Part shown: positions 38,044 through 43,336 of the stretch, in pieces | Numbering within the stretch: position 1 is the first letter of the stretch | Layout of the letters: every line of letters begins with the position of its first letter | From: an uncultured Alphaproteobacteria bacterium | Lineage (GTDB): Bacteria; Pseudomonadota; Alphaproteobacteria; CAAGCB01; CAG-977 | Length of the DNA stretch: 64,000 nucleotides | NCBI GenBank assembly: GCA_944390195.1 | Contig: CALXOZ010000001.1 | Span: 62,001-126,000 of the forward strand | Reading direction: 5' to 3' | Notes under the pieces: model-generated | Told to the model about the DNA's origin: nothing | Database searches by the model: none | Seen by the model: the letters and a program-made list of their open reading frames with translations, nothing else | Translations under genes and position numbers: made by a program

Positions 38044-38976
38044 TTAATAAAACAAACTAGTGACAGAGCGTTCCTCACTGATACGCAAAATGGATTCTCC
38101 GACCAATTCCGCAACAGAGACAACACGAATATTTCTTGCTTCTTTAACGGCTTGGGTCGGTTCTATCGTATCCGTGATAACCAAAGATTCCAACGGAGAA
38201 TCCGTTACACGTTTCACGGCATCGCCAGATAAAACACCATGCGTTACATAAGCATATACGGATTTGGCGCCAGCGTTTTTCAAAGCTACAGCAGCGTTGC
38301 ATAATGTACCGGCTGAATCAACAATATCATCAACCAAAATACAATCCTGCCCTTCAACTTCTCCGATAATATTCATAACTTCGGATACACCGGCCTTTTC
38401 ACGCCGCTTATCAATGATAGCCAAATCCGCATGCAACCGTTTGGCTATCCCTCTCGCACGAACGACTCCGCCGACATCCGGAGACACAATCATAGGAGTT
38501 TTATCTCTGAAATGATACATGATATCTTTTACCATTACCGGCGCCGCCATTAAATTATCAACGGGAATATCAAAAAAACCTTGTATCTGACCAGCATGAA
38601 GATCCATCGTTACCACACGGCTTGCTCCTGCCGAAGTAATTAAATTCGCCACTAATTTAGCAGAAATCGGTGTACGCGGCGCTGAACGGCGATCTTGACG
38701 CGCATAACCGAAATAAGGGATAACTGCTGTTATACGACGCGCTGACGAACGTTTGAACGTATCCAACATGATCAACAGTTCCATTAAATGGTCGTTCACC
38801 GGAGAACTGGTCGGTTGGATAATAAAAACATCTTGTCCACGAACAGTTTCCTGAACTTCAACAAAAATTTCATTATCGGCAAAACGACGTACCGAACATT
38901 TTGATAAAGATGTATCCATATAACTTGCAACCGCTTGGGCAAATGCAAAATTACTGTTACCTGAAAAAACTTTCAT
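38044..38976 (-). CDS. prs: Ribose-phosphate pyrophosphokinase
   Basis: This 310-residue enzyme makes PRPP from ribose 5-phosphate and ATP for nucleotide, histidine and NAD synthesis. The signature [20 protein letters not shown] lies near 125-144, and the PRPP-binding loop [10 protein letters not shown] near 216-225. The flexible ATP loop begins [10 protein letters not shown]. It is the last gene of the minus-strand run hldD-lgt-DUF2062-pgeF-prs. Confidence 0.97.
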
Positions 38977-38995: not shown

Positions 38996-39766
38996 TTAAA
39001 ATAAAGACGAATCAAGCAGACCTATAACCGATATCTGACGTCCGCATTTTTCGCCTTTCCGAGTTGAACGGCGATTGGAAAAATATTCCTTTTCCAACGT
39101 ATAAGTGTCTTCTCCGACCCATTCCGCCGCTCCAATCCCTTGGCGTTCCAATCTCGATAAAACATATCCGGGCAAATCAAACCTGTATTTTCCAGCCCCT
39201 GACGGATCGAAAAACAATGATGCCTTTACATCCGCTTGCAAAAAGGACTCTTTCATATCCTCCCCGACTTCATAAGATTGCGGCGCTATACACGGTCCGA
39301 TTAACGCTGATATGTTTTCTTTTTTCGCCCCCATTTTTAACATCATATCAATTGTGTTTTCCAATACACCGCTCACCGCTCCACGCCATCCCGCATGGAC
39401 TGCCGCAACAACACAATGATCTGAATCAGCCAATAATACAGGCGCACAATCGGCTGTCTTTATCCCTAAAAAAATATTCGATTGATCCGTTACCAAAGCG
39501 TCTCCGTAAGGGGTCTTGTCAAAAGGTTCTCGTGTCGTAACGGGTATCACAATCGATGAATGAGTTTGATGTAAAACAAACAACTTTTCCACCGTACACC
39601 CCAAATAACCGGAAACTCTGCGCATATTCTCGCGTACCTTTGCAGGATCATCTCCCACTTTCACGGAACAATTCAATGAATCAAATTCACCGGTTGAAAC
39701 ACCGTTCTTGCGTGTAAAAAAACGGTAACGGATATTTTCTGAAAAACAAAGTGTCGTCTTACCCAT
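38996..39766 (-). CDS. pgeF: PgeF/YfiH family purine nucleoside phosphorylase, multicopper-oxidase-like fold
   Basis: This 256-residue protein belongs to the DUF152/laccase-domain family. Members act as purine nucleoside phosphorylases, and the E. coli member edits peptidoglycan precursors. The metal-site residues are visible in VLHQTHSS, IKTADCAPVLL and AVHAGWRGAVSGVL, followed by IGPCIAPQSYEVG. It starts directly after the DUF2062 stop. Which of the described activities applies here cannot be told from sequence. Confidence 0.92.
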   Translation of the reverse strand: MGKTTLCFSENIRYRFFTRKNGVSTGEFDSLNCSVKVGDDPAKVRENMRRVSGYLGCTVEKLFVLHQTHSSIVIPVTTREPFDKTPYGDALVTDQSNIFLGIKTADCAPVLLADSDHCVVAAVHAGWRGAVSGVLENTIDMMLKMGAKKENISALIGPCIAPQSYEVGEDMKESFLQADVKASLFFDPSGAGKYRFDLPGYVLSRLERQGIGAAEWVGEDTYTLEKEYFSNRRSTRKGEKCGRQISVIGLLDSSLF

Positions 39767-40540
39767 TTAATCTTGTCCTGTTTTGTTTAAAACAGCCTCT
39801 TGTTTTGCTGCTATTGTCTTTTCCAGTTTTTCTTCCAGCCTTTTTTGTTTATTTTCAAACTTTTGTTGTTTGATTTCTATTTTATGCTCCGCCTTTTCCT
39901 TTTTGCGTTCAAACTTTTTCTGCGTTTTTTCTATCTTCTTTTCAAGACGCTTTTGACGGTTGGCCAAACGCCGTGTCAATGTCTGCCGCCGCCGATTAAT
40001 ATACCATAGCGTCCATTTATAAGCCCCCCAGCCGCCTATGATAATCCAAGGAACGGAACCGATCATCATGGACACGCCCCAATCCTTGATTAATATCGTC
40101 CCCATTGCTTTTAAGGCTTCAATCAAGCCGTCTTCATCCAACACCGTTTTTATCAGACCGTAAAATTTGGCATATGTCGTTCGTTCCTCGAACTCTGCGG
40201 TCATCAATTTTCCTGTAACATAAAACATATAATAAAAAGGGGGAATTGTAAAAACGTTCGTTATCCACGTCCAAGCCAAACCGACGGGAAGATTAAAATC
40301 CCATTTAAAAAATTTCCGACTAAACAGCCATGTTAAAAAAACAAGATACATTTGAATCCCGACAAGAGGGGTCATAGCCCATCCCATGCCGATTAACGCC
40401 CCTCTTGCGGTTATTTCAGGAGGATGCTTTGACCGAATCATTGGAATGATCAACTTCATGCGAACAACTGAAGCGATCGTTTTGAAAAAACCTCTTTTCT
40501 TTAAATTAAGCGGCATATCTTCCTTAATCCGACGTTTCAT
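39767..40540 (-). CDS. DUF2062 membrane protein with long charged C-terminal coiled coil
   Basis: This 257-residue protein has a DUF2062 domain over about residues 35-170, with two or three hydrophobic segments (GALIGMGWAMTPLVGIQMYL, WTWITNVFTIPPFYYMFYV, GSVPWIIIGGWGAYKWTLW). After residue 185 the chain is almost purely Lys/Glu/Gln/Arg with heptad-like spacing (KRLEKKIEKTQKKFERKK), a predicted cytoplasmic coiled coil. The function is unknown. It abuts pgeF and follows lgt by 38 bp, so it is probably cotranscribed with these envelope and nucleotide genes. Confidence 0.88.
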   Translation of the reverse strand: MKRRIKEDMPLNLKKRGFFKTIASVVRMKLIIPMIRSKHPPEITARGALIGMGWAMTPLVGIQMYLVFLTWLFSRKFFKWDFNLPVGLAWTWITNVFTIPPFYYMFYVTGKLMTAEFEERTTYAKFYGLIKTVLDEDGLIEALKAMGTILIKDWGVSMMIGSVPWIIIGGWGAYKWTLWYINRRRQTLTRRLANRQKRLEKKIEKTQKKFERKKEKAEHKIEIKQQKFENKQKRLEEKLEKTIAAKQEAVLNKTGQD

Positions 40541-40578: not shown

Positions 40579-41382
40579 CTAAGCTTTTTTTATTGACCAT
40601 ACGATTATGGAGACACCGACAATCAACATCGGAATCGTCAATATTTGTCCCATTGTTATTCGGGCAAATAAAAATCCCAGTTGCGGATCCGGTTCCCTGA
40701 AGTTTTCCAAAACGGCGCGAATTATCCCGTAACTGCATAGAAACAATCCCGATGTAAATCCGGGACGGATCCTGACCCACACACTGTGCGTCCACAAAGA
40801 ATACAACAAAACAAATAACAAGACCCCTTCAAAGCCGGCTTCATATAACTGACTGGGGTGACGGGGCAAAGGACCTCCGTTCGGAAAAATCATAGCCCAC
40901 GGCACAGATGTCGTTACGCGACCGTAAAGTTCTGAATTCGCAAAATTTGCCAATCTGCCCAAAAACAAACCGATCGGCGTGATACAAGCTAATATGTCTG
41001 TAAATAAAAAAAACTTCACTTTCACATAACGGGAATATAAATACACAGCAATGATCACACCGATCAAACCGCCGTGAAAAGACATTCCTCCTTGCCATAA
41101 GGCCATAATTTGTAACGGATTTTCCATGTAATACGAAAAATTATAAAATAAAACGTATCCTATTCTGCCTCCGATGATAACCCCTAATGTCCCCCAAAAA
41201 ATCACATCGTCAATCATCACTGGCGTAATCTGATTGGGATAACGCTTTACCATCTTGCGAGCCAAAAACCAAGCAGCGAGTATACCTAACAAATAAGCCA
41301 GAGAATACCATCGCAAACCGAAACTGCCTATATGAATGGCAACAGGATCTATGTCAGGAAAAGATATGCCTTTGTATGTCAT
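40579..41382 (-). CDS. lgt: Prolipoprotein diacylglyceryl transferase
   Basis: This 267-residue polytopic enzyme adds diacylglycerol to the lipobox cysteine of prolipoproteins. The Lgt signature GRLANFANSELYGRVT is near residues 142-157. The catalytic-region His is in GGMSFHGGLIGVI near 99-111. It begins 8 bp after hldD. Several lipoproteins in this window (LptE, DUF3576, LppC, the 304-residue protein) would be its substrates. Confidence 0.96.
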   Translation of the reverse strand: MTYKGISFPDIDPVAIHIGSFGLRWYSLAYLLGILAAWFLARKMVKRYPNQITPVMIDDVIFWGTLGVIIGGRIGYVLFYNFSYYMENPLQIMALWQGGMSFHGGLIGVIIAVYLYSRYVKVKFFLFTDILACITPIGLFLGRLANFANSELYGRVTTSVPWAMIFPNGGPLPRHPSQLYEAGFEGVLLFVLLYSLWTHSVWVRIRPGFTSGLFLCSYGIIRAVLENFREPDPQLGFLFARITMGQILTIPMLIVGVSIIVWSIKKA

Positions 41383-41390
41383 AAAAACCT

Positions 41391-42377
41391 CTATTTATAC
41401 GGATCAGGTGTTTCCAAGTAATTTTTCACATACTTTGAAACCCCCTCCTCTAAAGTTGTAAACGGCTTCGTATATCCGACCGCCCGTAATTTCTGAATAT
41501 CCGCTTGTGTAAAATATTGGTATTTCCCTTTTATTTCCAAAGGCAGATCCATAAAATCCATTTCCGGCTTTTCGTCTAACGCAGCATAAACAGAACGCAA
41601 AACATCCGCATACGTCCGCGCACAACCTGTTCCGATATTGAACAATCCGCTGATTTCCGGATGACTGACCAGCCATAAAATAACATCAACAGTGTCTTCA
41701 ATCCACATGAAATCCCGCATCTGCTCCCCGTCCTTATAAGACGGATTGTCGGATTTAAACAAAGGAAAAAGTTTCCCGTTCTTCGCGGCATGATATATTC
41801 TTGGAATTACACTTTGATGACGTGTGTTATGGTATTCGTTCGGACCGTATAAATTAAAACAACGCAGACCGATCCATTGAGGAGGAACCGTCTCTCCGCG
41901 ATTAATCGTATCAATGATCTTGCGATCTAAAAACAGCTTTGTCCATGCCAAAGCAGACATCGGTCTGAGTTTTGCCAATTCCTGCGCTGAATCACTATCC
42001 TTAAACCCCAATGATCCGTCACCGTATACTCCAGCCGTTGAATCATATATAAAAGGAACTTGATGACGGGAACACCACGACCATAATTGCCATGTCAAAT
42101 GAATTCGTTCGTCTATCAACTCGTCAACATTTTCTTCCTTGAAAAAGCCTGTATAGTTAATATGAAAAACCGCTTCTATCCTGCTAGCATGGTTATCCAA
42201 GTATTCAAAAATTTTTTCCGGAAAAATAATATCACGCAAAGAACGTTTCGCTATATTACGCCAACGATCATCCGTTTGAAAACGATCGACAATCGTTATT
42301 TCACCCAATCCCCGTTCTTCTATGCCGGCGGCTATGTTCGACCCCAAAAAACCGGCACCACCCGTAATTACATACAT
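41391..42377 (-). CDS. hldD: HldD-like ADP-heptose epimerase homologue with substituted catalytic residues
   Basis: This 328-residue extended short-chain dehydrogenase follows the ADP-L-glycero-D-manno-heptose 6-epimerase layout: NADP site ITGGAGFLGSNI near 4-15, FHINYTGFFKEENVDE near 71-86, YDSTAGVYGDG near 111-121, and FNLYGPNEYH near 174-183. The YxxxK motif reads LAWTK, so Leu143 stands where the catalytic Tyr140 of E. coli HldD should be. The residue at the position of catalytic Lys178 is Asn184. Lys147 is kept. It may have a changed substrate or be inactive. The neighbours lgt and the envelope genes suggest a surface-sugar role. Confidence 0.8.
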   Translation of the reverse strand: MYVITGGAGFLGSNIAAGIEERGLGEITIVDRFQTDDRWRNIAKRSLRDIIFPEKIFEYLDNHASRIEAVFHINYTGFFKEENVDELIDERIHLTWQLWSWCSRHQVPFIYDSTAGVYGDGSLGFKDSDSAQELAKLRPMSALAWTKLFLDRKIIDTINRGETVPPQWIGLRCFNLYGPNEYHNTRHQSVIPRIYHAAKNGKLFPLFKSDNPSYKDGEQMRDFMWIEDTVDVILWLVSHPEISGLFNIGTGCARTYADVLRSVYAALDEKPEMDFMDLPLEIKGKYQYFTQADIQKLRAVGYTKPFTTLEEGVSKYVKNYLETPDPYK

Positions 42378-42514: not shown

Positions 42515-43336
42515 ATGAATCAGTCTGTTTCTATTTTACTCGTCGGTTGCGGAAAAATGGGAGGCGCCGTTTTAAACGGGGCGTTACAAAACGGATTCAG
42601 TCCGGAACATATTTTCGTTGTTGAACCGAACAATGATATCCGTAAGGTGTTAAAAGATAAAAAAATCGTTTCCGCGCCGTCTCTAAAAGAGATGAATTAT
42701 TTTAAACCGGACATCGTTTTCTTGGCTGTCAAACCTTTTCTGATCGAACAGATTATCTCTGATATCAAGCCATTTACTGATAATGGAGCTGCCCTTTTAT
42801 CCATTATTGCCGGAAGGAAAATTGCATGGTTTAAAGAAAAATTAGGGATGAATACCGTCGTTTTCCGTGCCATGCCCAATACTCCGGCGGCTATCGGAGC
42901 GGGAATTACGGGAATTATCGCCTCTCCGGAAGCTTCTGACAAACAATATCAAATTGTTGAAACGCTTTTGACTTCCTGCGGACAAACCGTCTGGTTGAAA
43001 TCAGAAGAACATATCGATGCCGTAACAGCAGTTTCCGGAAGCGGTCCCGCCTATGTTTTTTATTTGACAGAAGCATTAACTCAAGCCGCCGTGTCTTTGG
43101 GGTTAGATCAACAAACCGCTCAAAAACTCGCAAAAAACACGATTATCGGAGCGGCTGCATTAATGGCTGAAAGTGATGAAAATCCTGATGTCTTGAGAAA
43201 AAATGTTACAACACCCAATGGAACAACCGCCGCAGCTCTTGACATCTTGATGAATCCGGATTCAGGTTTGACTCCGCTTTTGGAAAAAGCGGTCTCAGCT
43301 GCTAAAAAACGTTCCGAAGAACTCGCCTTGGTATGA
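42515..43336 (+). CDS. proC: Pyrroline-5-carboxylate reductase
   Basis: This 273-residue enzyme makes the final reduction in proline synthesis. The dinucleotide-binding site is LLVGCGKMGGAVLNGAL near 8-24. Further motifs are VFRAMPNTPAAIGAGITG near 118-135 and the C-terminal signature VSGSGPAYVFYLTEAL with TPNGTTAAALDIL. The ATG is preceded by a perfect AAGGAG. It is divergent from hldD and overlaps the MATE gene by 4 bp. Confidence 0.97.
   Translation: MNQSVSILLVGCGKMGGAVLNGALQNGFSPEHIFVVEPNNDIRKVLKDKKIVSAPSLKEMNYFKPDIVFLAVKPFLIEQIISDIKPFTDNGAALLSIIAGRKIAWFKEKLGMNTVVFRAMPNTPAAIGAGITGIIASPEASDKQYQIVETLLTSCGQTVWLKSEEHIDAVTAVSGSGPAYVFYLTEALTQAAVSLGLDQQTAQKLAKNTIIGAAALMAESDENPDVLRKNVTTPNGTTAAALDILMNPDSGLTPLLEKAVSAAKKRSEELALV

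Follow-up and report, generated by a model that had tools for sequence, protein, structure and literature searches.

We propose, at a probability that we put at roughly 55%, that the HldD-like protein encoded in the 64,000-nucleotide stretch of DNA analysed here (the window) outlived a lost ADP-heptose pathway, is no longer an epimerase, and persists as a nucleotide-binding, non-catalytic protein. This proposal is based on the loss of catalytic residues, the absence of the pathway from the genome, common descent with canonical HldDs, constraint on the gene, and an intact predicted fold, all of which were observed. HldD is a sugar-modifying enzyme that normally performs the final step in making one component of the outer membrane in bacteria; the window protein would not carry out C6 epimerisation of ADP-heptose, but it is kept under strong selection and has therefore probably taken on another role.

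The open reading frame, coordinates and strand of the gene were given correctly in the first-pass annotation (Table 1), and the match to HldD that it had claimed from fold markers was borne out by profile score, predicted fold and gene order. The window protein scored 302.1 bits against the NCBIfam equivalog model TIGR02197 (heptose_epim; cut-off 274.6), and 170, against a cut-off of 452, with NF008360, a stricter model for the same enzyme. Structure prediction gave a pLDDT of 92.1 and a pTM of 0.91, and in a Foldseek search with the predicted model ranks 1-11 were all HldD chains (TM 0.73-0.91), the nearest solved folds being 4ej0, 2x6t and 1eq2. An HldD-like gene was present in 11 of 12 genomes examined of the window's family (the named members are uncultured Alphaproteobacteria and include several of rumen origin and one found in horse faeces); all 11 proteins matched TIGR02197 at 1e-10 or better. 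In a quick tree they formed one clade (SH-aLRT 100), which lay within the canonical alphaproteobacterial HldDs; its sister sequence, L073, carries the canonical residues and comes from a genome that contains hldE. Tree position and gene order both indicate common descent with canonical HldDs, and the window gene appears from them to have been inherited vertically as the only HldD copy of this alphaproteobacterial lineage.

Table 1. Features of the HldD-like gene and its surroundings, in window coordinates.
Feature	Position	Strand	Basis or remark
HldD-like protein, 328 aa, extended SDR, orthologue of lgt-linked alphaproteobacterial HldD	41391..42377	(-)	TIGR02197, nearest folds, synteny, tree
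Gly-rich dinucleotide-binding motif GGAGFLGSN, residues 6-14	42336..42362	(-)	kept except Ile11 -> Leu
Tyr75, replaces near-invariant Ala77, loop after beta 4	42153..42155	(-)	fixed in 8 species
Arg91, replaces invariant Asn93	42105..42107	(-)	fixed in 8 species
Asp112, replaces invariant Ala114 beside active-site Ser/Thr pair	42042..42044	(-)	fixed in 8 species
Leu143, codon TTG, at catalytic Tyr140 position	41951-41949	(-)	phmmer, MAFFT
Lys147, kept YxxxK lysine (E. coli Lys144)	41937..41939	(-)	alignment
Cys173, replaces Phe (E. coli Tyr167)	41859..41861	(-)	fixed in 8 species
Asn184, codon AAC, at catalytic Lys178 position	41828-41826	(-)	phmmer, MAFFT
lgt, next gene of block, 8 nt downstream of HldD-like gene	40579..41382	(-)	TIGR00544
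DUF2062 protein, next in block	39767..40540	(-)	PF09835
pgeF / Cu-oxidase_4 family gene, ancestral neighbour	38996..39766	(-)	PF02578, synteny
prs, ancestral neighbour	38044..38976	(-)	synteny; name from reading translation
proC, divergent ancestral neighbour	42515..43336	(+)	synteny; name from reading translation

The first-pass annotation had reported Leu143 in place of E. coli Tyr140 and Asn184 in place of Lys178, and had named alignment with a characterised HldD as the check. A phmmer alignment with E. coli HldD (PDB 1eq2) gave the same two residues with no gaps near either catalytic site, MAFFT alignments concurred, and no proper alignment by either program restored a Tyr and a Lys at these positions. 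Neither residue that defines catalysis by ADP-heptose 6-epimerase is therefore found in the window protein. Ser113 is kept, and Ser116 is replaced by Thr114. No compensating Tyr or Lys was found near the lost positions; Tyr118 and Tyr182, considered as stand-ins for the tyrosine, were rejected, as both occur in canonical HldDs too.

Among 89 other alphaproteobacterial HldDs, Tyr140 and Lys178 were both invariant (89/89). In the window's family, Tyr140 was lost in all 11 proteins (Ala in five, Leu in two, Glu in two, Phe and Met in one each), and Lys178 in eight (Asn in six, Ser and Thr in one each), the lysine being kept in the other three. Since the tyrosine is gone from every family species and both residues are invariant elsewhere, the loss is more than chance and is no single-genome error; since three of the 11 species keep Lys178, the double loss belongs to one sub-clade of the family. 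The first split in the family tree leads to G008 (Phe, Lys kept), followed by G011 with G007 (Leu or Met, Lys kept), and then by G009 with the window's genus, where Tyr and Lys are both lost.

The window's genome is a 2.12 Mb assembly, 98.55% complete, and was covered by six-frame family searches. Second copies of hldD, and hldE and gmhA, which the first-pass annotation had suggested looking for, were all absent, the gene in the window being the only HldD-like one. The best kinases were generic PfkB proteins with no more than about 60 bits against an HldE cut-off of 345, and the best of them (L031), considered as a hidden HldE, scored higher as an iolC/ribokinase-type kinase. No GT9 heptosyltransferase was found in this genome either, so that both the supply of ADP-heptose (hldE, gmhA) and its transfer are missing. 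On these negative searches, the window's genome has no ADP-heptose to epimerise. One option left by the first-pass annotation, that heptose is not epimerised, is thereby supported and extended, while another, that other residues take over for the same reaction, becomes unlikely because the pathway is absent.

The same pattern was seen across the family. No hldE, no GT9 and no convincing ADP-heptose pathway were found in 10 of the 11 family genomes with an HldD, among them the window's. HldE accompanied HldD in 1/11 family genomes versus 22/24 genomes of other families (Fisher p 4e-6, a guide only, as the test ignores kinship and the genomes are related). Of 20 genomes with canonical, mostly lgt-linked HldDs, 17 carried hldE, including that of L073. 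Genomes without HldD outside the family had hldE in only 2 of 25 cases, and lacking both genes is thus the other usual outcome there. The window's genome has both lpxC and a Kdo transferase, which were present in 11/12 and 12/12 family genomes, respectively. Lipid A-Kdo synthesis thus seems, from gene content, to be present in the family, and a lipopolysaccharide without heptose is plausible.

Three relatives depart from this pattern or add to it. In G009, locus L143:7128-13901 (contig C25) holds in a row hldE, gmhA, a gmhB-GT9 fusion, a GT2 gene and an EptA-like gene, beside kdsA and tpiA (both named from reading translations). The only HldD of this genome is an Ala/Thr version, without both catalytic residues. 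Its HldE shows about 40% identity to every relative compared, and the GC content of its hldE matches the contig. G009 might make D,D-heptose, or might have regained the pathway, and offers a natural experiment on the use of D,D-heptose. In G005, locus L145:3487-9184 (contig C14; genes named from translations) contains a cluster resembling GDP-heptose synthesis, with a nucleotidyltransferase fused to a GmhB-like phosphatase, a GmhA-like isomerase, a GHMP-type kinase, and its own SDR, which is GDP-mannose-dehydratase-like. G010, listed as 97% complete, has a Kdo transferase and lacks the HldD-like gene, lgt and lpxC; this may reflect an odd or gapped assembly, or a genuine change in the envelope.

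The HldD-like reading frames were intact in all 11 family genomes bearing the gene. In the comparison with the nearest relative, dN was 0.076 for the HldD-like gene, 0.137 for lgt, 0.159 for the DUF2062 gene, 0.28 for proC and 0.026 for prs; dS was saturated, which makes dN/dS a rough guide. With its intact frames and slower change than lgt, the HldD-like gene is not decaying and is under strong constraint. The hldD/lgt rate ratio within the genus was 0.80, versus 0.80 for canonical pairs, and between genera 1.21 versus 0.94, which suggests a past burst of change in the HldD-like gene.

Changes beyond the catalytic pair were examined at 77 alignment columns with conservation of 95% or more among canonical HldDs, in the eight species that have lost both residues. 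Fifty-six columns were intact in all eight, and 15 were altered in all eight. Unchanged residues include the Gly-rich motif (bar I11L), Asp31, Ser113, Lys147, Asn175, Glu181, His183, Arg221 and Tyr286. Alterations shared by all 11 family species are T119V, G141A, V170L and that of the catalytic tyrosine; those confined to the eight affect G76, A77Y (Ser at this position in one basal species), N93R, A114D, Y/F167C, K38R, I11L and the catalytic lysine. Positions 143, 184 and 74 vary among the eight, while Tyr75, Arg91, Asp112 and Cys173 are fixed. From the alignment and the contacts of HldD and related SDRs, we take the changed residues to lie around the nicotinamide/cofactor and catalytic site, and the retained Arg and Tyr are presumably contacts of the substrate nucleotide in HldD. 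Set against canonical alphaproteobacterial HldDs, the window protein is homologous over its whole length and shares the fold, the dinucleotide motif, the lysine of YxxxK and the gene order, and differs in lacking Tyr140 and Lys178, in its replaced pocket residues, and in a genome without the ADP-heptose pathway. Judged by its sequence, it is an HldD orthologue in which the defining residues of ADP-heptose 6-epimerase are missing.

A course of events consistent with these data can be proposed, in which the lineage would have lost the ADP-heptose pathway and the HldD protein stayed on. In a first step, common to all 11 species, Tyr140 would have been lost and its position left to drift freely (F, L, M, A, E), with T119V, G141A and V170L becoming fixed around it. 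In a second step, in the eight species that include the window's, Lys178 would have been lost, and around the cofactor and catalytic site A77Y, N93R, A114D and Y/F167C would have become fixed. Through both steps the protein has kept its dinucleotide motif, Asp31, the lysine of YxxxK and the presumed contacts of the substrate nucleotide. Such a protein may still bind NAD(P) and/or an NDP-sugar, and may have a binding or regulatory role without catalysis; like HldD, it is probably an oligomer. Two points speak against lost epimerase activity, namely the retention of Lys178 in three basal species, and G009, with its hldE-gmhA-gmhB/GT9 genes and an HldD that is Tyr-less and Lys-less. A one-base mechanism, reportedly proposed for HldD by Kowatz et al. 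2010, weighs on the same side.

The gene order around the window gene, proC (divergent), hldD-lgt-(another gene)-pgeF-prs, is common to the canonical HldDs of Magnetospirillum, Acetobacteraceae, SAR116 and others. The first-pass annotation had read an envelope-related context from lgt. The linkage is real; it says less about function than it seems to, and was rejected as a clue, since an hldD-lgt pair is ancestral across Alphaproteobacteria and an inherited linkage tells nothing of a new role. In 11/11 family genomes lgt starts 8-34 nt downstream of the HldD-like stop. At window positions 41380-41395 (-) (TAGAGGTTTTTATG), the stop touches the likely lgt ribosome-binding site, in the run TAGAGG, and this arrangement suggests translational coupling of the HldD-like gene to lgt.

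It is improbable that the gene is a leftover kept mainly for such coupling, its protein doing nothing important. The spacing, short in all 11 genomes, and the contact of stop and likely ribosome-binding site fit this reading, but it leaves unexplained the amino-acid conservation, with dN within the genus lower than for lgt and 56 of 77 canonical columns untouched in eight species. That the protein is still an ADP-heptose 6-epimerase, with acid/base roles moved to other residues, is very improbable: the score above the HldD equivalog cut-off and the hldE and GT9 of G009 would agree with it, but both acid/base residues are missing, as is a convincing pathway from 10 of the 11 HldD-bearing genomes. 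An artefact of assembly, binning or alignment has a negligible chance of accounting for the data; the named family relatives are all metagenome-assembled genomes, but eleven independent species concur, with intact frames, conserved neighbours and gapless alignment at both catalytic sites, and the family-wide pattern already refutes it.

A different substrate, the remaining option of the first-pass annotation, may still apply, because the pocket keeps its nucleotide end while the remainder is rebuilt with fixed residues. It is possible, and we put it forward tentatively, that HldD has become a new protein family in these gut and rumen Alphaproteobacteria, its ligand or active site being new and conserved (Tyr75, Arg91, Asp112, Thr114, Cys173) and its selected function lying in the envelope or in nucleotide-sugar metabolism, unrelated to heptose. 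It is rather unlikely that the scaffold has become a new enzyme whose substrate is another nucleotide sugar and whose chemistry is done by new residues (e.g. Tyr75, Asp112, Thr114, Lys147). The fixed pocket residues, the strong constraint and the kept nucleotide-end residues Arg221, Tyr286 and Asn175 argue for such an enzyme, as does the existence of active SDRs without the tyrosine (PMC3699295, PMC8987622). Against it, the catalytic position itself varies freely (L/A/E), the new residues are missing from three basal species, and the neighbours are ancestral housekeeping genes that point to no new sugar pathway. The charged and aromatic residues that have newly become fixed in this pocket in eight species might just as well form a new catalytic site. 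Position 143 varies freely in fixed surroundings, which would be expected of a site with no part in the chemistry, and this tips the balance, though not strongly, towards a non-catalytic protein as the likelier reading.

Known SDRs offer partial parallels to the preferred reading, that of a non-catalytic binding protein. HSCARG and NmrA, from a different SDR branch, are SDR-type NADPH sensors, and provide a proposed analogy for the use of the scaffold as a nucleotide sensor. The window protein keeps the Gly-rich motif, Asp31 and Lys147, and might, like a sensor or an SDR pseudoenzyme, bind a cofactor or ligand without turnover. In MAT2B, an NDP-sugar-type SDR acts as a regulatory subunit, with the YxxxK triad kept and NADP bound (PMC3793261); the proposed analogy lies in the use of an NDP-sugar SDR scaffold for binding or regulation, but the window protein, unlike MAT2B, does not keep the triad. 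Among extended SDR dehydratases, CapE is active with MxxxK (PMC3699295), and WbpM and PglF with Met replacing Tyr (PMC8987622). These enzymes, like the window protein, have lost the tyrosine and kept the YxxxK lysine. In them, however, the residue is Met and activity was demonstrated, whereas in the window's family, known from sequence, a conserved Met was not found, the position being L, A, E, F or M.

Annotation pipelines name the window protein ADP-heptose epimerase on its equivalog score, with which residues and pathway disagree, and metabolic models of these genomes would wrongly include L,D-heptose. The family offers a graded set of natural variants, in which Tyr has become Phe with Lys retained, or Leu or Met with Lys retained, or both residues are gone, and a pathway enzyme surviving its pathway is a testable case of enzyme repurposing. 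The host senses ADP-heptose as a signal (PMC10948575), and that these gut bacteria probably lack it may therefore matter too.

A separate observation concerns a gene that lies between prs and the gene for ribosomal L25 (37154-37936, (+)) and encodes a 260-aa aminoglycoside nucleotidyltransferase-like protein. No counterpart matched at the same place in the relatives' loci L050-L058. The protein scored 316.9 bits with the ANT(9) subfamily model, under the cut-off of 340, and 227 bits with the aadA-family model PRK13746, over the cut-off of 193.
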